This document shows positions 24,500 to 43,895 of a DNA stretch of 64,000 bases, piece after piece. The notes beneath the pieces are model-generated. The model was not told the origin of the DNA, made no database searches, and worked only from the letters and a program-made list of their open reading frames with translations. The position numbers and the translations under genes are program-made. The stretch lies in the NCBI GenBank assembly GCA_902516925.1, contig CABYAF010000001.1, forward strand, positions 1 through 64,000, written 5' to 3'. Every line of letters begins with the position of its first letter. Positions within the stretch are counted from its first letter, which is position 1. Origin of the DNA: an uncultured Bacteroidota bacterium (GTDB lineage Bacteria > Bacteroidota > Bacteroidia > Flavobacteriales > Flavobacteriaceae).

Positions 24500-25414
24500 T
24501 TATAGGTATAGTTTTTGTCCAAGCCTTGCAATATTGAAGCCTTTGTTAATAATTGATTTTGATAAATCACTATTAGGGTTTAACATATGGTTAGTGTGGT
24601 TCATATGAATAAAGTAAACTTTACTCTTGTTCTTTTTGCTTAAACTATTAAGAAGATTAATTGTCTCAGATACTATGGGATGCGGAATTTCACTTATATC
24701 TCTATTTATCTCGTTAGAATCATAGAAAGTGGCATCTAATAGTAAATAATCAAAATCCTTAACTAGGTCTATCAGGTTTTTATCCCATTTCTCCCATTTA
24801 TCTATATCTGGTATAAATAAAGCTTTTTTATTTTTTCCGATTATGATATAGCCTGCTGTCTCGGAATACTCATCTCTATGGGGAACTTTAATTGGAGTTA
24901 CTTCTATATTATTCAACTCCGAATTGCTTACATCAAATTTTGTATTTTGGATTTGAATGTTGTTTAGGGTAACTAATTGACTCCATGGACCGTTTGTTTT
25001 CAAAAAATTACTCATTTTAGGAAGAACCTTAACCAAAAGGTTTTTTGAACCTAATGCTTCTCTTCCAAAATACATTAGTCCAGTATAATGTCCAATATGG
25101 GCATGGGTAATGTATATGGCTTCGGGGAGAAGAAATTCTTGAAAAATATTATCCTTTAGATAATTTAGTTGGTATGTAATGTCGGGTGTTGCTTCAAAAA
25201 GGATATATTTCTTTTTTTCTTGATTAACAACTGCAATTGAGGTTACATAATACTCCTCATACATATTAAAATTATCTAGACAAAACTGATGTTTACACCC
25301 TATGTGTGGCATACCTGCATCCTGAGTATTACCAAGAACATAGATATACTCTGACTGAGTATAAATAGGCATAGAAATAGAGAGAATTAATAAAAATTTT
25401 AAAATTCTAATCAA
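24500..25414 (-). CDS. PqqB-like secreted MBL-fold metallo-hydrolase
   Basis: 304 residues with an N-terminal signal peptide (ending near PIYTQS). The metallo-beta-lactamase fold resembles PqqB: LGNTQDAGMPHIGCKHQFC at the start (PqqB has a similar Gly-rich, Cys-containing loop), EATPDI, THAHIGHYTGL, VPHRDEYSETAGY, and LLLDATF. PqqB acts in PQQ formation in the cytoplasm; this copy is exported and lacks pqqACDE neighbours. Its ATG overlaps the TonB receptor stop by 4 bases, so the two proteins probably handle the same compound. PQQ or a peptide-bound quinone is the obvious guess. Confidence 0.75.
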   Translation of the reverse strand: MIRILKFLLILSISMPIYTQSEYIYVLGNTQDAGMPHIGCKHQFCLDNFNMYEEYYVTSIAVVNQEKKKYILFEATPDITYQLNYLKDNIFQEFLLPEAIYITHAHIGHYTGLMYFGREALGSKNLLVKVLPKMSNFLKTNGPWSQLVTLNNIQIQNTKFDVSNSELNNIEVTPIKVPHRDEYSETAGYIIIGKNKKALFIPDIDKWEKWDKNLIDLVKDFDYLLLDATFYDSNEINRDISEIPHPIVSETINLLNSLSKKNKSKVYFIHMNHTNHMLNPNSDLSKSIINKGFNIARLGQKLYL

Positions 25415-27426
25415 AATGAAAAATTAATGCCAAAATAAAAATTTCTTTTTGGAGCTGGCTCATAGTATCTTTTTCCGAAGGCATTTATCCTTATGTTATC
25501 ATAGAATTCTTCATTAAAAAGATTGTTAACCCCTAAAGAAAACTCACTCTGTTTAAAAATCTCTTTTGAATATTTAACATTAAAAATGTTATATGAACCA
25601 ACAAGAGTTTCATTAAGATTATCAGCATACCTCTCTCCTATTAAACGATTAGATAGTATTAACCTACTTTTTTTGGACAATTTGAATAGTACTTCCAAAT
25701 CTAGCATTTGACTTGGAATACCAGGAATTAAGTTTTCTGAGAGGTCATTGCCATCTAGAATAAAATCCTTAAATCTATTTTTACTTAATGTGTAGTTAAG
25801 ATTAAACATACCGCCTTTAAAAGAAAGCGAAGAACTTAGCTCAATCCCTTGTCTTAATGTTGATCCCACATTTCTGTAAAAGTTTTTACCTGGAAATAGT
25901 TCAATTTCGTAAGGTAAAATTTCATTATCTGAATTTGTAATATAGGCCACTGCTTCAAAAGCTATATTTGATAATGATTTTCTCCATCCAAACTCATAGT
26001 TTATGGCATTGTTGGATTTTAAATCTTTATTGAAACCCGTTCCATCAGGGTTATTTGATAGCTCATTTAAGGTTGGTGTTTCAAAGCTTGTTCCAAAGGA
26101 AAAGAAAAGGTTGTCAGATGAGTTAATTGCGTATGATAACCCTAAAGAAGGATTAATCTTATCAAGATTAACCTTGTTATTTGAGTCAATCCCAATAGAG
26201 TTGATATCGTATCTAACTCCATATCTTAATAGCAGTCCTGAATTGAAAGTAGTTTGACTAACAAGATAGACACCTGTTGTGTCAAAGTTTTCCATTTGAC
26301 CAAGAGTTTTATCTCCTTTTATTCCAAAGTTGTTTTTAAATCTTTTTCTATCATCTGATTGGCTCAAATGATCAACGCCCACTATAAAAGAGTTATTTCT
26401 ATTCTCAAAATTTTTATTTCTTGTAAATTTTGTTCCAAATCCATAATAATCTCTATCTATTGAAATAATTCCTCCATAGTTAAACGGTAATTTTGAATAA
26501 AAATCTCTCTGTTGATAAAAGAAATAACTGTCAAAAAAGGAGTTTTCATTTTTCTTATAATTCCATGATATACCTGTCTTTAAATGCTTTACCTTTTCAT
26601 AAGTGTCATAATCAATATTATTTTTTCTTGCCTGTCTTCGATCATTTTCAACTTCATTTAGTTTGAGACCACCTGAATCATAAGCATAAGGACTATCCGT
26701 ATAATTTATCTGCCAAACAATCTTATTCTTTTGATCTAACTCGTTAATATATTTAAGATTCAGTATCGTAGATTTATAATTACTTTGATCTCTGTAACCG
26801 TTAGATCTTCTCTTATCATAATGAATTATTAGGTTGGAATTTTTCCAGTCCAAAACCCTTGTTCTTTGAATCGACTGATATTGATAAGCTCCAAAAATTC
26901 CTGAAGTCCTATAATATTTGTCACTAGGATTTGACAGAGTATTTATACTTATTACTCCACCTGATGAGTTACCGTATAAATTTGCATTTGGACCTCTTAG
27001 TATCTCAATGTTTGAAATTAAGCCTAGTGGGAGATTATCTAATTGACTTTGACCGTCAGGTGTTGTCTCTGGAATCCCATCAACTATTAATTTTATTCCT
27101 CTTATACCAAATGCAGATCTTGCACCAAATCCTCTTATAGAAATCCTCATATCTTGTGAGAAGTTGTTTGATGAAGTTGTAAACACACCTGGTGTGTTTT
27201 TAATAAAATCAGAAAATGAAGACTGAGAGCTAAAGTTTCTATCCTCAATGAAACTTTTAAAAGTAACTGATAAAGGCGCTTGTTTTTGAGTAGTATTAAT
27301 TCTAGTTGATTTAACAACTACATTTTCAAGATCTATAATTTGAATGGAGTCTTGGAAATTTCCAAAAATAAAAAATGGAGCTAATAAAAATACTTTACTG
27401 ATATACCCTAACATAGTCAATTTCAT
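25411..27426 (-). CDS. TonB-dependent receptor, PqqU/YncD-like
   Basis: About 671 residues from the chosen Met (the track's first ATG, 9 bases further up, lies inside the preceding gene; all candidate starts overlap it). Signal peptide, plug domain at about 50-160, then a 22-strand barrel ending in an aromatic residue (FYFGINFSF). The plug (SIRGFGARSAFGIRG, VDGIPETTPDGQ, LRGPNANLYGNSSGGVIS) follows E. coli YncD/PqqU, the PQQ importer, much more closely than SusC proteins; there is no carboxypeptidase-like N-domain and no SusD. Stop overlaps the PqqB-like gene start. Confidence 0.85.
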   Translation of the reverse strand: MKLTMLGYISKVFLLAPFFIFGNFQDSIQIIDLENVVVKSTRINTTQKQAPLSVTFKSFIEDRNFSSQSSFSDFIKNTPGVFTTSSNNFSQDMRISIRGFGARSAFGIRGIKLIVDGIPETTPDGQSQLDNLPLGLISNIEILRGPNANLYGNSSGGVISINTLSNPSDKYYRTSGIFGAYQYQSIQRTRVLDWKNSNLIIHYDKRRSNGYRDQSNYKSTILNLKYINELDQKNKIVWQINYTDSPYAYDSGGLKLNEVENDRRQARKNNIDYDTYEKVKHLKTGISWNYKKNENSFFDSYFFYQQRDFYSKLPFNYGGIISIDRDYYGFGTKFTRNKNFENRNNSFIVGVDHLSQSDDRKRFKNNFGIKGDKTLGQMENFDTTGVYLVSQTTFNSGLLLRYGVRYDINSIGIDSNNKVNLDKINPSLGLSYAINSSDNLFFSFGTSFETPTLNELSNNPDGTGFNKDLKSNNAINYEFGWRKSLSNIAFEAVAYITNSDNEILPYEIELFPGKNFYRNVGSTLRQGIELSSSLSFKGGMFNLNYTLSKNRFKDFILDGNDLSENLIPGIPSQMLDLEVLFKLSKKSRLILSNRLIGERYADNLNETLVGSYNIFNVKYSKEIFKQSEFSLGVNNLFNEEFYDNIRINAFGKRYYEPAPKRNFYFGINFSF

Positions 27427-28372
27427 ATGTTGCATTAGTAAGACCTGGAGCTACATAACCGTCAGTCCAATGTCCACCAACAGCAAGGTTTACTAATAAG
27501 AAAAATGGTTTGTCAAATGGTGAATGTTGTGATTGCATTGGATATTCAAAATACATTTCTTCATCTATAAAAAATTGAATTTTGTCAGGTGCCCATTGGA
27601 TTGAATAAGTATGAAATTCCTCAAATGGATTATCAATTATTTTTTCAGCTCTTATAAACCTTTCTTGGCCAGTATCAAAAAAGATTTTATCTGGAACATA
27701 TGTAGCCTGTCTCGAGTAATCTTGAGGACCATAATGAACAGCTGAAGAAATCAGTCCTGGATCATTAATAGTACTATCTTTAACATAATCTCCATGTTCT
27801 AATATATCTAACTCTCCACAATTAGGCCAACTAACTTCATCAATATTTGCACCAAGCATCCAAAATGCTGGCCACATTCCCTCCCAATTAGGAAGTTTTG
27901 CTTTCATCTCAACTCGGCCGTATGTAAACTCAAATTTATCTTGTGTATTTATTCTTGCAGAAGTATATAGTTTACCTTGAAAGTCCTCTCTTTTTGCTGT
28001 AATTTTCAAAAGGCCATCTTCAACTTTAATATTATCTTGTTTATCTGTGTAATATTGTAACTCTCCATTATACCAACTACCATTATCTGGTGCAACGGTT
28101 TCAATATTCCATTTATCTGGAGAAACAGCCGGGACTCCAAATGATGAATCTTCATCAAACTCATCACTCCAAATTAGGTCGTTTCCAAAAGAATAACTAA
28201 GAGCTGTTTGATTAGAAGGGTTATTTCCTTGAGTATTATTGCCTCCTTGATTTAAGTTTGTGTCTTGATTTACACTACCTGACAAATAAGAATCATTAAC
28301 ATCAGTTTTAGATCCACCGCATGAGATTAATATAAACAAAGCGAAAAAGATTGAATTTAAGTAGGTTTTCAT
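27395..28372 (-). CDS. GH16 endo-beta-glucanase lipoprotein (laminarinase-like)
   Basis: 325 residues from the ATG at 28372; the longer ORF in the track adds 35 residues with no signal-peptide character. Lipobox FILISC, a Ser/Asn/Gly/Gln-rich linker to about residue 60, then a GH16 domain: LIWSDEFDE, YTSARINTQDKFEFTYGRVEMKAKLP, MWPAFWMLG, and catalytic G-E-L-D-I-L-E (nucleophile and acid/base Glu). Probably cleaves beta-1,3(1,4)-glucans such as algal laminarin at the cell surface. No SusC/D pair is adjacent. The stop lies inside the 5' end of the receptor gene, suggesting coupling. Confidence 0.9.
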   Translation of the reverse strand: MKTYLNSIFFALFILISCGGSKTDVNDSYLSGSVNQDTNLNQGGNNTQGNNPSNQTALSYSFGNDLIWSDEFDEDSSFGVPAVSPDKWNIETVAPDNGSWYNGELQYYTDKQDNIKVEDGLLKITAKREDFQGKLYTSARINTQDKFEFTYGRVEMKAKLPNWEGMWPAFWMLGANIDEVSWPNCGELDILEHGDYVKDSTINDPGLISSAVHYGPQDYSRQATYVPDKIFFDTGQERFIRAEKIIDNPFEEFHTYSIQWAPDKIQFFIDEEMYFEYPMQSQHSPFDKPFFLLVNLAVGGHWTDGYVAPGLTNATYEIDYVRVYQ

Positions 28373-36249: not shown

Positions 36250-36699
36250 ATGAGATTATTTAAGGATGTTAAAGGCAACAATGTTGATCCCGTTAATCAT
36301 ACTCTTTCCATTTTAAAAGAATATCCATACGCAAAAATTCATATTGGCTCTGACTCACAAAATGTTGGTAAGAAGACTAATTATACAAGTGTAATAGCAT
36401 ATAGACTTGGCACTAGAGGAGTACATTATATATTAAGTAAGTCTTCATGCGAGGCAATAAATGATATTTGGAAAAGACTTTGGTTAGAGGCTGAATACAG
36501 TATTAAAGTTGCAGAATGGCTAACTAAACAAGTCAGTGTTCAAGTTGAAATAGATATGGATTATAACTCTGACGAAAATCATAAATCAAATAAATTAATC
36601 TCAGCAACAAAAGGGTGGGCTAATTCTTTAGGTTATAAAGTCAATGTTAAACCAAACAATCAGATAGCAACAAGAGCTGCTGATCATCATTGTAAATAA
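36250..36699 (+). CDS. YkuK-like (DUF458) RNase H-fold protein
   Basis: 149 residues. The N-terminal IHIGSDSQNVGKKTNYTSVIAYRL is the family signature; it is an RNase H-like first strand with an acidic residue (Asp) in the metal-binding position. EIDMDYNSDENHKSNKLISATKGW and ATRAADHHCK complete the domain. DUF458/YkuK proteins have an RNase H fold and unknown role. Single gene convergent with the DgcN homologue: its stop and the other stop are adjacent. Confidence 0.8.
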   Translation: MRLFKDVKGNNVDPVNHTLSILKEYPYAKIHIGSDSQNVGKKTNYTSVIAYRLGTRGVHYILSKSSCEAINDIWKRLWLEAEYSIKVAEWLTKQVSVQVEIDMDYNSDENHKSNKLISATKGWANSLGYKVNVKPNNQIATRAADHHCK

Positions 36700-37731
36700 T
36701 TAAGTTAATTGACTAAAAATTTTACCTCCACCATACCTTACTACATCAGTTGAAGGAAGTCCTGTTTCTTTTTCCGTTTTTTCTATAAATTCCTTAGCTG
36801 CTTCATCAGTCATTAAGGTTGTGTTAAGTGCAATCCCAATCACTTTTGTACTAGGATATGTTCCAATGACTGAGGCTAGTTCTTCATTAAGTTTTATAAA
36901 TTTTTTTAAATCAGGAATCTTAATATTCTCAAGAGACCTTAATGAATCATTTCTAGCTATATGACATAAAATCATATGGGTTGGACATGTTCCTCTCATT
37001 AATGGAAGAGTAGCTGAACTGCCTGGATGTAAAATAGAACCCTGGCCTTCTACAATTACAATATCTTTATCTTTCTGCTCAATAACTGCAGACTCAACTG
37101 CTCCGCAAGCATGGTCAAGTTTATATGCATCTAGGGGTATACCCTTTCCTGTAACTGTTATACCTACTTGTCCCGTAGCAACAAATCCCGTATTAATCTG
37201 TTTTTCTTTTAAATATGAATATAATTCCAGTCCCACAGTCATTTTTCCAGCAGCCATATCAGTACCGATCATTAAAACTCTTTTGTTAGATAAATTTATA
37301 GCTTTGGCTGATCCTATCTTTGGTACAAACTGAGGAACCCTAGTATCCCATATCCATTGAGTTTTATCAGTTAAATATTTTGAAAAATCAGGGTAAACTT
37401 GATCATGTAATCCATTAATTATTGACATACCTTGATTTAATGCCTCTTTAATAACATTATTCCATGACTTTGGTCTTACTCCACCTGAAGTCAGAACTCC
37501 TAGCAATAGAACATTAGCTCCCATAGCTTTAGCCTTATTTATATCCTCAACAACTGGAATGTCTTTCTTAATAATTGAAACCTCAGATATTTTTTTACCA
37601 GCAAAAACAGAGTCTATAACACAAAGGATTTCATTATCAAGATATCTAAGTGCACTAATGCCCATTTTTCCATAGTCATCATCAATACTTGACTCCATCC
37701 ATATTGCAATTTTATCAGATTGTTTCAACAT
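36700..37731 (-). CDS. dgcN: DUF1611 protein, D-glutamate N-acetyltransferase DgcN-like
   Basis: 343 residues from the Met at 37731 (MLKQSDKIAIWM); the longer ORF overlaps dgcA further and its first 9 residues do not look conserved. Rossmann-like N-domain, then a P-loop-like segment RVLMIGTDMAAGKMTVGLEL, VAATGQVGI-like region and VEGQGSILHPG, as in DUF1611 proteins. In marine Pseudoalteromonas DgcN acetylates D-glutamate and DgcA, an epimerase, inverts it, after which the acetyl group is removed. The neighbouring gene here is exactly such an epimerase, overlapping by 17 bases. Confidence 0.82.
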   Translation of the reverse strand: MLKQSDKIAIWMESSIDDDYGKMGISALRYLDNEILCVIDSVFAGKKISEVSIIKKDIPVVEDINKAKAMGANVLLLGVLTSGGVRPKSWNNVIKEALNQGMSIINGLHDQVYPDFSKYLTDKTQWIWDTRVPQFVPKIGSAKAINLSNKRVLMIGTDMAAGKMTVGLELYSYLKEKQINTGFVATGQVGITVTGKGIPLDAYKLDHACGAVESAVIEQKDKDIVIVEGQGSILHPGSSATLPLMRGTCPTHMILCHIARNDSLRSLENIKIPDLKKFIKLNEELASVIGTYPSTKVIGIALNTTLMTDEAAKEFIEKTEKETGLPSTDVVRYGGGKIFSQLT

Positions 37732-38773
37732 AACTCTGAGTTTTAAGTTTAGCTCCATGACCTGGCATCGAGTTTGTCATAGTTATCCCATTGACCATTG
37801 AAGAGCCTTCACTAGGATCTGGATCTAAATTATAGTGAGAGTCTAAATCAACATAATCTATTATACCTGTAATTGAGGCCCCTGCTGATATGCTAACAGA
37901 TGATTCACTCATACATCCAATCATAGTTTTTAATCCATGTGCTTTTGCAACATTTAAAATTTTTAAGGCCTCGGTTATTCCTCCGCATTTCATGAGTTTT
38001 AAATTTACCCCATCAACATATTGATAGTACTTTGCAACGTCGTCTGAAAATCTGCATGATTCATCAATAAATATTGGAAGAAGCCTGCCTTCAAATAAGA
38101 ATTTAAGTTTATCTTCTTCTCCTTCAACTAATGGTTGTTCTATATATTCTGCTTTTCTTTCTGCTAGCCATTTCATCATAAGTTTTGCCTCATGTAAAGT
38201 CCATCCTCCATTTGCATCAACACGAATAGCAATATCTTTGTTTTTAGTTGATTCAATTACTTGCGAATAGATCAACTTATCATATTCTATGCCTTCTTTA
38301 GAGCCTAATTTAATTTTTAAAGCCTTTACCTCTGGATTCTGTACTATTAATTCTACTCTCTCTTTTACTACTTCAGGTGGATTTATACCAACAGTTAAGG
38401 ATGTGGGAACGGATGTAGATGGGAGTCCTAATAAATCTTTCAAAGATATATTTGCCTTTTTTGCTTTCCAATCCCATAAAGCAATATCCATACCAGCCAT
38501 AGCACATGCTGGAACATTTAACTCTTTAGCTCTTTGATTTACTTCGTATATTGAAAGTGAGTCTATTTTTGAGTCAATCAATCTTTTAAGATGTACTTCA
38601 ACTTCATGAGCTGTTGTTGCTCCTTCTGTTTTTCCTGGAGCACATTCTCCCCAAGCAGTAATATCATCTTTAATAATTTCAACAAATAGATTTTGTGACT
38701 TATCATGTGTTCCTCTGCTAATTTGAAGAGGAAATTTTTTCTTAAGATTTACTATATGAAAATTAAATTCCAT
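37715..38773 (-). CDS. dgcA: Enolase-superfamily dipeptide/N-acetyl-glutamate epimerase (DgcA-like)
   Basis: 352 residues. Muconate-lactonizing subgroup layout: capping domain to about 120, then VKALKIKLGS (K-x-K), RVDANGGWTLHEA (metal Asp), IEQPL (metal Glu), IFIDESCR (metal Asp) and LKLMKCGGI (second Lys). This matches L-Ala-D/L-Glu epimerases such as YcjG, and DgcA of D-glutamate catabolism. With DgcN next to it, epimerisation of N-acetyl-D-glutamate is the favoured reaction; murein-derived dipeptides are the alternative substrate. Confidence 0.85.
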   Translation of the reverse strand: MEFNFHIVNLKKKFPLQISRGTHDKSQNLFVEIIKDDITAWGECAPGKTEGATTAHEVEVHLKRLIDSKIDSLSIYEVNQRAKELNVPACAMAGMDIALWDWKAKKANISLKDLLGLPSTSVPTSLTVGINPPEVVKERVELIVQNPEVKALKIKLGSKEGIEYDKLIYSQVIESTKNKDIAIRVDANGGWTLHEAKLMMKWLAERKAEYIEQPLVEGEEDKLKFLFEGRLLPIFIDESCRFSDDVAKYYQYVDGVNLKLMKCGGITEALKILNVAKAHGLKTMIGCMSESSVSISAGASITGIIDYVDLDSHYNLDPDPSEGSSMVNGITMTNSMPGHGAKLKTQSYVETI

Positions 38774-38804: not shown

Positions 38805-39131
38805 TTATTGATTTTTTTCTTTAAAATTATCAAGGGTCTCTCTTAAGTATATAGGAGTTCTATTTCGTCTAGTTATCCACTTAAGTTTTCCTTTTTCTTG
38901 ATATCTAATAAGGGTACTCTCACTTAAACCAAGATATTCTGCAGCTTGTTTTCTTGGAAGATATTTGATGTGGTCTGGGAGATTCGAGCAATCATAATTA
39001 GAAGAGGCTAGCTCAAGAAAACTTCTTTCAATTTGAATGTCTTCTTTCTTAACCCTTCTTCCCTCAAAGTAAACTGATCTGACTCCATCAGGAAAATAAA
39101 TTTGGTTTATATCAATCCACTTTTTGTGCAT
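38805..39131 (-). CDS. Helix-turn-helix (MerR/excisionase-type, HTH_17) protein
   Basis: 108 residues. The C-terminal half is a clear excisionase-like winged helix: YLPRKQAAEYLGLSESTLIRYQEKGKLKW followed by a wing and RTPIYLRETLDNF. The first 50 residues are not recognised. It lies 31 bases upstream of dgcA on the same strand, so it is probably co-transcribed and may control the D-glutamate genes. No integrase is nearby, which argues against a phage excisionase. Confidence 0.7.
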   Translation of the reverse strand: MHKKWIDINQIYFPDGVRSVYFEGRRVKKEDIQIERSFLELASSNYDCSNLPDHIKYLPRKQAAEYLGLSESTLIRYQEKGKLKWITRRNRTPIYLRETLDNFKEKNQ

Positions 39132-39231: not shown

Positions 39232-39753
39232 ATGAAAAGACTTTTTTTTATAATTATTATCCTAGTTTCTAATTCTATTGAGGCTCAAATTGGCAGAGAA
39301 GGATACTATCGATCAAACTATGGCACTAGAAACTATAATTCTGGGCTAAATTCATTTGAATATGGAATAATTGGTTCAAACCAAGATGCAACTGGCTCAC
39401 CTACTGGATTAATATCTGCAATAATTAGAAGAATTCCCACTGCAAAAAAAATTTCAGACAGATTTGGAAATGAAAATGTGTCCCTAAGAGGAAGAAATTC
39501 TGTTCAGGCAGCTGGTGATGAAGTTCTTTGGGAAATTGATGGTGTTACTTTCCAATCTCCACCAATGTTAAGTGTAAATGATGTAGTTTACGTTGAAATT
39601 ATAAAAGGGCTTGCTGCAACTAATAAATATGGCTCGGATGGAGCAGCAGGAGTAATTATTATAAAAACAGCGGTAAACGCATCTAACTTTGATTTAATTA
39701 ATTCTCCAAAAAATCTTTGGAGAAAAGTTACAGAAAAAAAAGTTAAGAGGTAG
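39232..39753 (+). CDS. Secreted stand-alone TonB plug-domain protein 1
   Basis: 173 residues. Signal peptide (to SIEAQ), about 45 poorly conserved residues, then a SusC-type plug core: NVSLRGRNSV, VLWEIDGVTFQSPP, DVVYVEIIKGLAATNKYGSDGAAGVIIIKT. In a receptor this would be followed by a 500-800-residue barrel, but the gene stops about 30 residues later (KNLWRKVTEKKVKR). The next gene encodes a paralogue, so the short form is not a random truncation. Role unknown; it could occupy or modulate a receptor or interact with TonB. Confidence 0.7.
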   Translation: MKRLFFIIIILVSNSIEAQIGREGYYRSNYGTRNYNSGLNSFEYGIIGSNQDATGSPTGLISAIIRRIPTAKKISDRFGNENVSLRGRNSVQAAGDEVLWEIDGVTFQSPPMLSVNDVVYVEIIKGLAATNKYGSDGAAGVIIIKTAVNASNFDLINSPKNLWRKVTEKKVKR

Positions 39754-39801
39754 TTAACACAACTAGTTCAAACTTTTTTTTATTTTAGCTTTTTACTTAT
39801 T

Positions 39802-40287
39802 ATGAAAGAGAAATATTTAGTTTTACTTATACTTTTTTCTGTCTTTTCTTATTCACAAGAAGACAAAATTTTTAAGGCTCAGCAAAATGCTATTTCATCT
39901 ATGTCATTAGTTGACGCGCTTGCATCTAGATATCCAGGTGCTAGAAAATATATTGATAGAATGGGCAATAATAATATTGCATTGAGAGGTAGACAATCAT
40001 TTAAAACTGCAGGTAATCAGGTTCTTTGGGAAATTGATGGTGTGATATACAATAACCCTCCCAGCCTTTATGCAAATCAAGTAAAATATGTTGAAATTCT
40101 TAATGGTCTAGCTGCAACCAACAGATATGGAAGTGAGGGAGCTGGGGGAGTAGTGGTTGTTAAAACAAATGTAAGTGCTGAAAAATTCAATAGCAGAAAA
40201 AACCTTTGGAACAGATCACTACAAATTCCAAAAAAAAAGAAGAAGGATAAGAAAGCTAAAAAGAAAAAAAAAGATAAAAAATCTTAA
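39802..40287 (+). CDS. Secreted stand-alone TonB plug-domain protein 2 (Lys-rich tail)
   Basis: 161 residues, paralogue of the preceding gene; 44 of 72 core positions are identical in my hand alignment. Signal peptide (to FSYSQ), plug core NIALRGRQSF, VLWEIDGVIYNNPP, YVEILNGLAATNRYGSEGAGGVVVVKT, then KNLWNR and a C-terminal tail that is almost all Lys (KKKKKDKKAKKKKKDKKS). The tail is absent from its sister. Both lack any beta-barrel. 48 bases after the first copy, no terminator between, so one transcript is likely. Confidence 0.7.
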   Translation: MKEKYLVLLILFSVFSYSQEDKIFKAQQNAISSMSLVDALASRYPGARKYIDRMGNNNIALRGRQSFKTAGNQVLWEIDGVIYNNPPSLYANQVKYVEILNGLAATNRYGSEGAGGVVVVKTNVSAEKFNSRKNLWNRSLQIPKKKKKDKKAKKKKKDKKS

Positions 40288-40298
40288 AAAATTCAAAT

Positions 40299-40790
40299 TT
40301 GAAAAAGATCAATGTTTTTTCTTTGTGTTGTCTGATATTGTTTAGCCTCAACTCATGTATTACAAATAATAAAAGTGCCTCTGATTTAGATTCTTTACAG
40401 CTTAAAACTTCATTTATTGATTTATATGATAATAATTTAGATCTCTCGGAATATAAAAAAGGAAAGATTGTAATTAATTACTGGGCTACATGGTGTGCGC
40501 CATGTATAAAAGAAATGCCAAGTATGAAAAGGGCTGAGGAAATTTTAGAGGAATACGGCTATACCTTTTTATTAGTTTCTGATGAAACAATATCTAAAAT
40601 ATCTAGTTTTAAAAACGAATGGAATTTTGATTTGAATTTTTTAAAATCCACTAAATCATTTGAGTCACTCGGAGTCTATGCTATGCCTACTTCTTATATA
40701 TTTGATGCAAATGGTCAATTAATTGAAACTATTTTTGGAGCAATTGAATGGGATTCGGAAGAAATGATTAATAAACTAAAAATGTTGTAA
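40299..40790 (+). CDS. TlpA/ResA-like thioredoxin lipoprotein
   Basis: 163 residues from a TTG start 11 bases after the second plug gene. Lipobox FSLNSC (Cys 20), then a thioredoxin fold with the redox motif W-C-A-P-C (65-69) and cis-Pro region AMPTSYIFD. Membrane-anchored periplasmic thiol-disulfide reductase. The following gene encodes a lipoprotein with a C-x-C-C cluster, a possible redox or metal-loading client. One base separates the two genes. Confidence 0.88.
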   Translation: MKKINVFSLCCLILFSLNSCITNNKSASDLDSLQLKTSFIDLYDNNLDLSEYKKGKIVINYWATWCAPCIKEMPSMKRAEEILEEYGYTFLLVSDETISKISSFKNEWNFDLNFLKSTKSFESLGVYAMPTSYIFDANGQLIETIFGAIEWDSEEMINKLKML

Positions 40791-40791
40791 A

Positions 40792-41991
40792 ATGAAAAAC
40801 TTTGTCATTGCCTTTTCTTTATTAAGTGTTTTTTCATGTACTTCTAATGATATCATAATAGAAGAAATATCTTTTTCATATGACAACAGCAATGCGCAGC
40901 CAAGTTTAGTTTCAACTAATGGTTCATTGTCATTGACTTGGATTTCTTCTGATGAGGACATGAATGCTAGTTTAAATTTTAGACAATTCAAGGATGGAAA
41001 CTGGACTGATCCTCAAACATTCGCTGTTGGTTCTAATTGGTTTGTTAACTGGGCTGACTTTCCAACACATGCAATAAGTGGTGATCAAGTTTTAACAAGC
41101 TACCTAAAAAAATCTGCATCTGGCACATATACCTATGATGTTTTTTTAAGTCTTCATAAATTATCTGGAGAGAAGGTAAAAGAAGATTTTATATTAAATA
41201 CAGATGGCTTCAAGGCAGAACATGGTTTTGTTAGTATAGTTGCAAAAGACAATGAAGGGTTTTTTGTTACTTGGTTAGACGGTAGAAATACAGTTAAAAA
41301 GGATTCAGAAGGGAATAGTAAACCTATGACCATTCGATTTGCTGAAATTACAAATGCAGGAGATATTATAGATGAGTCTGAGTTAGATTCATCTGTTTGT
41401 GATTGTTGTCAAACATCAATGACATTCACTGATAAAGGACCCCTAGTTGTCTATAGAGACAGAAGTAAGGAAGAAGTTCGAGATATTTATGTTACAAGAA
41501 ATGTAAATGATGAATGGGAAAATCCAGTGCCAGTTAATAATGATGGATGGGTAATTTACGGGTGTCCGGTAAATGGTCCTAAAGTTGTCTCCAATTCAAA
41601 AAATCTTGCTGTAAGTTGGTTTACTGTTTTAGATGGCAATCCAACAGTCAATCTTTCCTTTTCAGAATCTTACGGATCGTCTTTTGGTGGGCCAATAAAA
41701 ATTAATGACCTCAATGCTATTGGAAGAGTAGATACTGCCTTTTTAAATGAAAAGGAGGTAATGGTTAGTTATATGGAAGGTGACGATGTTGGTACATATT
41801 TAAGAATAAAAAAAGTTTCAATAGACGGAAAAGTTTCAGAGCCAATTACAATTTCTAAAATTGATAGTGGAAGAGGGACAGGAGTGCCACAATTAGAAAT
41901 ACTAAATGACGAGATATTTATTATATGGACTGTTTTTGACGACGAAAACAATCAATTAAAGACAGTAAGAGTGAATTCTAAAAATATTTAA
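40792..41991 (+). CDS. Sialidase-like beta-propeller lipoprotein with CxCC motif
   Basis: 399 residues. Lipobox SVFSC (Cys 16). Repeated beta units with Ser-x-Asp/Trp features (PSLVSTNGSLSLTWIS, EGFFVTWLDGRN, LEILNDEIFIIWTVF) suggest a six-bladed sialidase-like propeller. In the middle it carries C-D-C-C-Q-T and, about 60 residues later, Y-G-C-P-V-N-G-P, an arrangement that could bind metal or form disulfides; a sialidase active-site Arg triad is not evident. Lies directly after the TlpA gene. Function unknown. Confidence 0.6.
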   Translation: MKNFVIAFSLLSVFSCTSNDIIIEEISFSYDNSNAQPSLVSTNGSLSLTWISSDEDMNASLNFRQFKDGNWTDPQTFAVGSNWFVNWADFPTHAISGDQVLTSYLKKSASGTYTYDVFLSLHKLSGEKVKEDFILNTDGFKAEHGFVSIVAKDNEGFFVTWLDGRNTVKKDSEGNSKPMTIRFAEITNAGDIIDESELDSSVCDCCQTSMTFTDKGPLVVYRDRSKEEVRDIYVTRNVNDEWENPVPVNNDGWVIYGCPVNGPKVVSNSKNLAVSWFTVLDGNPTVNLSFSESYGSSFGGPIKINDLNAIGRVDTAFLNEKEVMVSYMEGDDVGTYLRIKKVSIDGKVSEPITISKIDSGRGTGVPQLEILNDEIFIIWTVFDDENNQLKTVRVNSKNI

Positions 41992-42998: not shown

Positions 42999-43895
42999 TT
43001 AGTTAAGCCTATAACTCAAACTGATTTTTAAAAAAGGGTGCCTGATAGTTCTTTGCATTTCGGTATCCTTAGACATAGAGTTAAAAGTAGTAAGAACTTG
43101 TAGTCTATTAAATCGCTTTTGGAGTCCAACTTCTATAGTATTTCTATATTTATTTGAGGACATTATAAGCTCAGCGTTTTCATTGAACAGGCTTCCCTCT
43201 AATTTATAATCATGAAAGTAGTACTCCTGACTGGTACCAATATAAAAGGATAAATTATTATCTGATTTGTTTATAATATTGTCTGATAGACTAAACCAGC
43301 TTACCTCTCCAATTAAAAGTCCAATATTAACACCTGCCATTTGCTGGTATGTTCCTAGTTTTGAGTAAACTTCTGTTGTGATGTTTATGTTATCTTCCAC
43401 CTCAAATCCTTTGAAATAATTTGCAACTAGATTTATTTGGAGTTCCTGAGGCATCTGAGATTTCCATTCCAGATTTGGTAAATTTAAAACAAGATCATGG
43501 TATAAATTTTGCATTCCTTTAGCCAACGATGCGTTACCTGTTATTCCAAAATTTACTCCATAAGAAAAACTGGAGTAATCAGATAGCTGTTTTTGTTTTA
43601 ATCCCTCTAAAAATAAATAGCCACTGTATGGGTAATCATATTTATTTGGGTCCGTCTCATATCTACTCGATGGGGTGTAAATTAACTGTCCTAATTTAAA
43701 ATGATTAATAAAGGTTTTTTCTTCTTTAATTTTATAAGATGAGTATGAAAGAAAAATTCCACTTGAGTAATAAAAGTCTCTGTCAAAATAAAGATCATTA
43801 TCTACATCTAAACTAACCTGTTGTTGAGAATAGCTATAACTTGAAATCATTACAACTAGGATAGTCAAAAATCTAAGTGCTGTTTTTTTAGACAA
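42999..43895 (-). CDS. lpxR: LpxR-type lipid A 3'-O-deacylase (DUF2219)
   Basis: 298 residues with signal peptide (to YSYSQ). Outer-membrane barrel pattern and LpxR landmarks: SLDVDNDLYFDRDFYYSSG (Ca/active-site Asn-Asp region), DYPYSGYLFLEG, FGITGNASLAKGMQNLYHD with the catalytic His/Ser-Lys area, and a C-terminal aromatic-ending strand (ISLSYRLN). Removes the 3' acyloxyacyl group from lipid A in the outer membrane in enterobacteria. Monocistronic, divergent from the GNAT gene. Confidence 0.8.
   Translation of the reverse strand: MSKKTALRFLTILVVMISSYSYSQQQVSLDVDNDLYFDRDFYYSSGIFLSYSSYKIKEEKTFINHFKLGQLIYTPSSRYETDPNKYDYPYSGYLFLEGLKQKQLSDYSSFSYGVNFGITGNASLAKGMQNLYHDLVLNLPNLEWKSQMPQELQINLVANYFKGFEVEDNINITTEVYSKLGTYQQMAGVNIGLLIGEVSWFSLSDNIINKSDNNLSFYIGTSQEYYFHDYKLEGSLFNENAELIMSSNKYRNTIEVGLQKRFNRLQVLTTFNSMSKDTEMQRTIRHPFLKISLSYRLN

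Follow-up and report, generated by a model that had tools for sequence, protein, structure and literature searches.

The plug domain is known chiefly as a gate inside receptors. Two adjacent genes, P1 and P2, found in a 64,000-nucleotide stretch of DNA from an uncultured marine member of the Flavobacteriaceae (GenBank assembly GCA_902516925.1, contig CABYAF010000001.1; hereafter the window), encode short proteins carrying such a plug and no receptor barrel. An original prediction, made from the nucleotide sequence without database searches, described the pair as exported paralogues that might plug receptors or titrate TonB. In the literature searched, which largely omits subscription journals, functional work on naturally barrel-less plugs was not found. 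As judged from the sequence comparisons below, P1 and P2 are conserved, barrel-less, predicted secreted plug proteins, built from a known domain, with a function that can be proposed by inference only.

Domain content of P1 and P2

The two ORFs were found as predicted (Table 1), and they are paralogues: the proteins are 52% identical over 125 aligned amino acids (E 1e-42), in agreement with an earlier hand count of 44 identities in 72 core positions. Both match the Pfam Plug family PF07715 (E 2.9e-7 for P1 and 1.6e-7 for P2) above its gathering cut-off of 23.9 bits. The top NCBIfam match for both is the SusC/RagA family TIGR04056 (2.5e-11 for P1 and 1.2e-11 for P2), where only the plug part of the 981-position model is matched and the scores of 42.7 (P1) and 43.8 (P2) bits are below the cut-off of 368.25. 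Both ORFs end soon after the plug and no barrel domain was found in the ORFs or by Pfam, which bears out the predicted SusC-type plug core without a barrel.

SusC consists of, in this order, an N-terminal extension (PF13715), a Ton box (DEVVVTG in BT1763), a plug and a barrel (PMC7782687). The PF07715 match begins only at profile position 20-21, so the plug start and the Ton-box region are missing in P1 and P2. Searching by eye did not reveal a DEVVV-like Ton-box string in either protein, and Pfam gave no match to the extension. The LRGR, IDG and YGSxGAxGV motifs are retained in the alignment. Export, as claimed earlier, is supported by Sec-type signal peptides recognised by eye in both proteins, with a basic start, a hydrophobic core and likely cleavage before Q near EA-Q and YS-Q; a lipobox Cys was not seen by eye.

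A PDB sequence search with a profile of P1/P2 orthologues returned SusC structures first (6zlt, E 7.5e-6). The AlphaFold model of P2 has a mean pLDDT of 63.6, with about 70-80 in the core, and TonB-dependent receptors (SusC, Cir, BtuB, TbpA, RagA) occupy places 1-18 of its Foldseek search, none with E below 0.002 (lowest 0.0023). For P1 the model is of low quality (mean pLDDT 51.5), but its best 7 structural matches are likewise TonB-dependent receptors. Compared with SusC/RagA transporters (TIGR04056; BT1763, PDB 6zlt, 5t3r), the plug core sequence and predicted fold are alike, whereas P1 and P2 have 161-173 amino acids instead of about 1000, lack the barrel, Ton box and extension, and carry an added SRKN motif and Lys tail.

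The Lys tail noted earlier for P2 is confirmed: Lys makes up 14 of the last 25 residues, against a mean of 3.1 in the 62 window ORFs of at least 100 amino acids. Fifteen of 173 genus-locus ORFs have at least 9 Lys among the last 25 residues, and all 15 are plug-family proteins. Such tails, in which both Lys codons are used, occur in P2 and in a third kind of paralogue described below. The motif after the plug follows a consensus common to the family, S-x-(K/R)-N-(L/I)-(W/L), according to the alignments; a scan of the receptors of the same genome gave one similar string, SRRNVL, far inside a receptor barrel.

Table 1. Position, strand and supporting evidence of features at the plug locus (window coordinates)
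Feature	Position	Strand	Evidence
P1, predicted exported stand-alone plug protein, 173 aa	39232..39753	+	Intact ORF; Pfam Plug 31.4 bits; orthologues in 14 genus genomes
P1 plug core, residues 56-141	39397..39654	+	PF07715 profile positions 20-107 of 107
P2, predicted exported stand-alone plug protein, 161 aa	39802..40287	+	Intact ORF; Pfam Plug 32.2 bits; orthologues in 18 genus genomes including its own
P2 plug core, residues 32-117	39895..40152	+	PF07715 profile positions 21-107 of 107; AlphaFold model and Foldseek
SRKNLWN motif of P2, residues 131-137	40192..40212	+	Alignments; after the plug, common to family members
Lys-rich tail of P2, residues 144-161	40231..40284	+	C-terminal Lys counts in genus loci
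TlpA-like thioredoxin lipoprotein	40299..40790	+	Pfam AhpC-TSA 1e-13; 11 bp after P2
Propeller-like lipoprotein with CDCC motif	40792..41991	+	1 bp after TlpA; by eye
Small HTH_17-like protein, divergent neighbour	38805..39131	-	HTH_17 25.8 bits (cut-off 27)
DgcA/dipeptide-epimerase-like enzyme, divergent neighbour	37715..38773	-	NF042940 184.6 bits (cut-off 400)
DgcN-like (DUF1611) protein	36700..37758	-	NF041892 212.3 bits (cut-off 480); DUF1611 205.8 bits

Conservation and origin

Conservation was assessed in 25 genomes of the genus, each counted once. P1 and P2 are present together, in the same gene order, in 14 of them, where P1 is frameshifted in G221 and a contig end truncates P2 in G189. 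Four genomes (G209, G211, G204, G220) have P2 only, and P1 without P2 was never found among the 25. Two species (G214, G219) have neither plug; the epimerase, HTH, TlpA, propeller and lipoprotein genes are still there, and no plug remnant was detected by tblastn. The remaining five assemblies are without plugs and also without the epimerase and TlpA genes, and are therefore uninformative on plug loss.

P1 and P2 have median pairwise dN/dS values of 0.162 and 0.154, compared with 0.10-0.20 in six neighbouring genes; these values are rough, as many dS values are high and some genomes occur twice in the sets. Judging by these comparisons, P1 and P2 are maintained under purifying selection yet dispensable, since two species have lost both genes and four have lost only P1. 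That they are kept under selection in relatives, with a lysine-rich tail on P2-type copies, indicates that the genes are real and probably repurposed.

Outside the genus, two related genera (three genomes: G053, G677 and G140) have a single barrel-less copy beside the same epimerase gene. The copies in G053 and G677, of 249 and 280 amino acids, consist of the CarbopepD_reg N-terminal domain (the extension, PF13715), a plug-like region and a basic tail, and the 182-residue copy in G140 has a Ton-box-like string, LEEVVVE, soon after the signal peptide. The possibility that homologues in relatives are full-length receptors, with truncation here, had been left standing by the original prediction. 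It is ruled out for the relatives examined, as no full-length receptor replaces the plug beside 20 DgcN-like loci or in 20 propeller regions (motif scan, in which the YG motif falsely flags DgcN-like proteins). Other barrel-less plug genes, which the prediction proposed to look for, do occur: at least 8 further genera of the family have complete short-plug ORFs, whose tail, anchoring and neighbours differ from those of P1 and P2. A phylum-wide profile search was dominated by ordinary SusC plugs.

In a quick tree the P1 clade (SH-aLRT 100) is nested within P2 sequences, with weak deep branches. The simplest reading of these data is that the family would represent a SusC receptor front end, an origin drawn from the SusC pieces kept by the copies in other genera (the extension in G053 and G677, LEEVVVE in G140). 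The ancestor would have consisted of extension, Ton box and plug after loss of the barrel, and would have gained the S-x-(K/R)-N-(L/I)-(W/L) motif and the basic tail; in this genus the extension and Ton box would have been lost, followed by duplication.

Several further short plugs were seen. G209 encodes another complete stand-alone plug (L225:1229-1663, 144 amino acids) that is approximately 50% identical to the plug of the own-genome SusC-like receptor, and which seems to have been detached from a receptor independently and more recently. A short plug abuts a subtilase gene in three other genera (L080:6929-10099, L081:4613-7827 and L092:7746-10936, with 0 bp, an overlap and 2 bp between the genes); these plugs appear to be lipoproteins judging by their signals, and the L080 subtilase, the only one of the three checked, carries a T9SS sorting tail. 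A short plug match in G201 was rejected, being a frameshifted receptor. PorF of Porphyromonas gingivalis has been called a plug-domain protein (PMC12704123).

Candidate roles

The role we favour, with even confidence for and against, is that P1 and P2 are lineage-specific small exported proteins from a SusC-type front end, now acting as non-transporting binding or adaptor proteins of the envelope near genes of D-amino-acid or peptide catabolism. Sec would export the protein, and electrostatic attraction between the Lys tail and an anionic partner or envelope surface would keep it in place. Having lost pore gating, the plug core would be the binding or adaptor part of an accessory function linked to peptide or D-amino-acid scavenging, with P2 as the core component and P1 as an add-on.

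The neighbouring genes suggest this link of the plug family to the scavenging of peptides or D-amino acids. Of these, the divergent epimerase/DgcN-like pair recurs most constantly beside the plugs; both genes are called '-like' because their NCBIfam matches are good but below the equivalog cut-offs. As evidence the neighbourhood is weak: in many genera a DgcA/DgcN-like pair stands without any plug, and the two plug-less species of the genus retain these genes. The dgcN gene has been reported from marine Bacteroidetes (PMC12363236).

A third kind of plug-derived protein, of 130-153 amino acids, was seen at L065, L085:6471-7395, L086:6811-7248, L088:7364-7789 and L089:9511-9903. Its neighbours include a PfkB kinase, KDPG aldolase, GntP permease, a RidA-like protein, an Ala_racemase_N/D-Ser-dehydratase-like protein and an M19 dipeptidase, and an M28 peptidase adjoins another copy. 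In the alignment its LRGR segment is missing and YGxxGAxGV is replaced by a CxC motif; the central DG..Y / (Q/R)(V/I)(K/R)Y core, the S-x-(K/R)-N motif and the Lys tail are kept. These paralogues are the main reason to think that the retained function of the family is probably something other than barrel plugging, since they lost the LRGR and YG segments and kept core, motif and tail. Against a binding or adaptor role, the LRGR and YGS motifs kept in P1 and P2 would also fit a plug that contacts a barrel, and the unfolded behaviour of an isolated FepA plug (PMC11658791) speaks against it too.

Less probable, though the strongest competitor, is a plug acting in trans: P1 and P2 would insert into SusC-type barrels when transport displaces the resident plug, and would seal or inhibit these barrels. 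In vitro, closed-state SusC barrels do not contain their plug (PMC7782687), the three plug motifs are retained, and the nearest receptor plug in the same genome is SusC-like, so that SusC barrels with displaced plugs are possible clients. The identity to that plug is only about 33% over 95 amino acids, however, the third-kind paralogues lack the LRGR and YG segments, and a free plug may not fold: the isolated FepA plug behaves as unfolded and binds ligand 100-fold more weakly (PMC11658791). That construct is also barrel-less but artificial, whereas P1 and P2 are natural genes under selection. Without a Ton box, TonB could not pull P1 or P2 out of a barrel.

Partner barrels were sought in five genus genomes by pairing PF00593 and PF07715 matches by eye, and PF14905 barrels were searched too. 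Every detected barrel is paired in frame with its own plug (one across a frameshift), the sole exception being cut by a contig end; there is thus no orphan barrel waiting for a plug in these genomes. Receptor plugging as originally proposed stands as a candidate, but a barrel without its own plug was not found. The window itself encodes a complete TonB-dependent receptor, plug and barrel included (25411-27435, minus strand), which is not close to P2.

A broader version, which we regard as speculative and slightly more doubtful than trans plugging, is that flavobacteria have repeatedly detached the TonB plug from receptors and used it in trans, as a portable, secreted module. Here it would be an envelope-attached, Lys-tailed partner, either a SusC stopper or an adaptor or inhibitor of secreted peptidases of the S8/M28 type; S8 and M28 peptidases adjoin other short-plug copies. 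If this is true, the plug has a further use outside receptors, as a free-standing protein.

It is improbable that P1 and P2 are accessories of the TlpA and propeller lipoproteins encoded downstream, in one envelope redox or receptor complex. The genes lie on the same strand with gaps of 11 and 1 bp and are linked in G053 and G677 too, but G201 and G202 have P1 and P2 and neither TlpA nor propeller, the reverse is true of G214 and G219, and TlpA and propeller genes occur without any plug in other genera. An obligate unit is contradicted by these separations in both directions.

Titration of TonB, also part of the original prediction, or TonB-linked signalling is very improbable: the plug derives from a TonB-dependent receptor and the G140 copy keeps LEEVVVE, but P1 and P2 have no Ton-box-like string, although SusC function requires the Ton box (PMC7782687). 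Least credible is that the genes are remnants of a decaying receptor, a reading that could draw on the plug losses, the frameshifted P1 of G221 and the probable beginning of the family as a truncated receptor. For the genus taken together it is refuted by a pair that is kept intact through most members, at a dN/dS of about 0.155, and by barrel-less copies in two other genera; the prediction had already argued against decay, from the duplication.

Other observations at the locus

A mobile or phage origin was rejected, since searches of phages, plasmids and viral contigs gave nothing, as was an anti-phage defence protein, with no PADLOC match at E 0.01. A promoter scan did no better than shuffles. 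'Propeller-like' is a reading by eye, as no Pfam family scored above its cut-off; of 200 genera sampled in the family, 42 have relatives of this protein, often beside a gene that reads like rimO. An LpxR-type outer-membrane protein (PF09982, 132 bits) is encoded beside the operon at 42999-43895 on the minus strand. The RNaseH_like (PF04308) protein at 36250-36699 is 95-100% identical in several relatives, far above the conservation of its neighbours.
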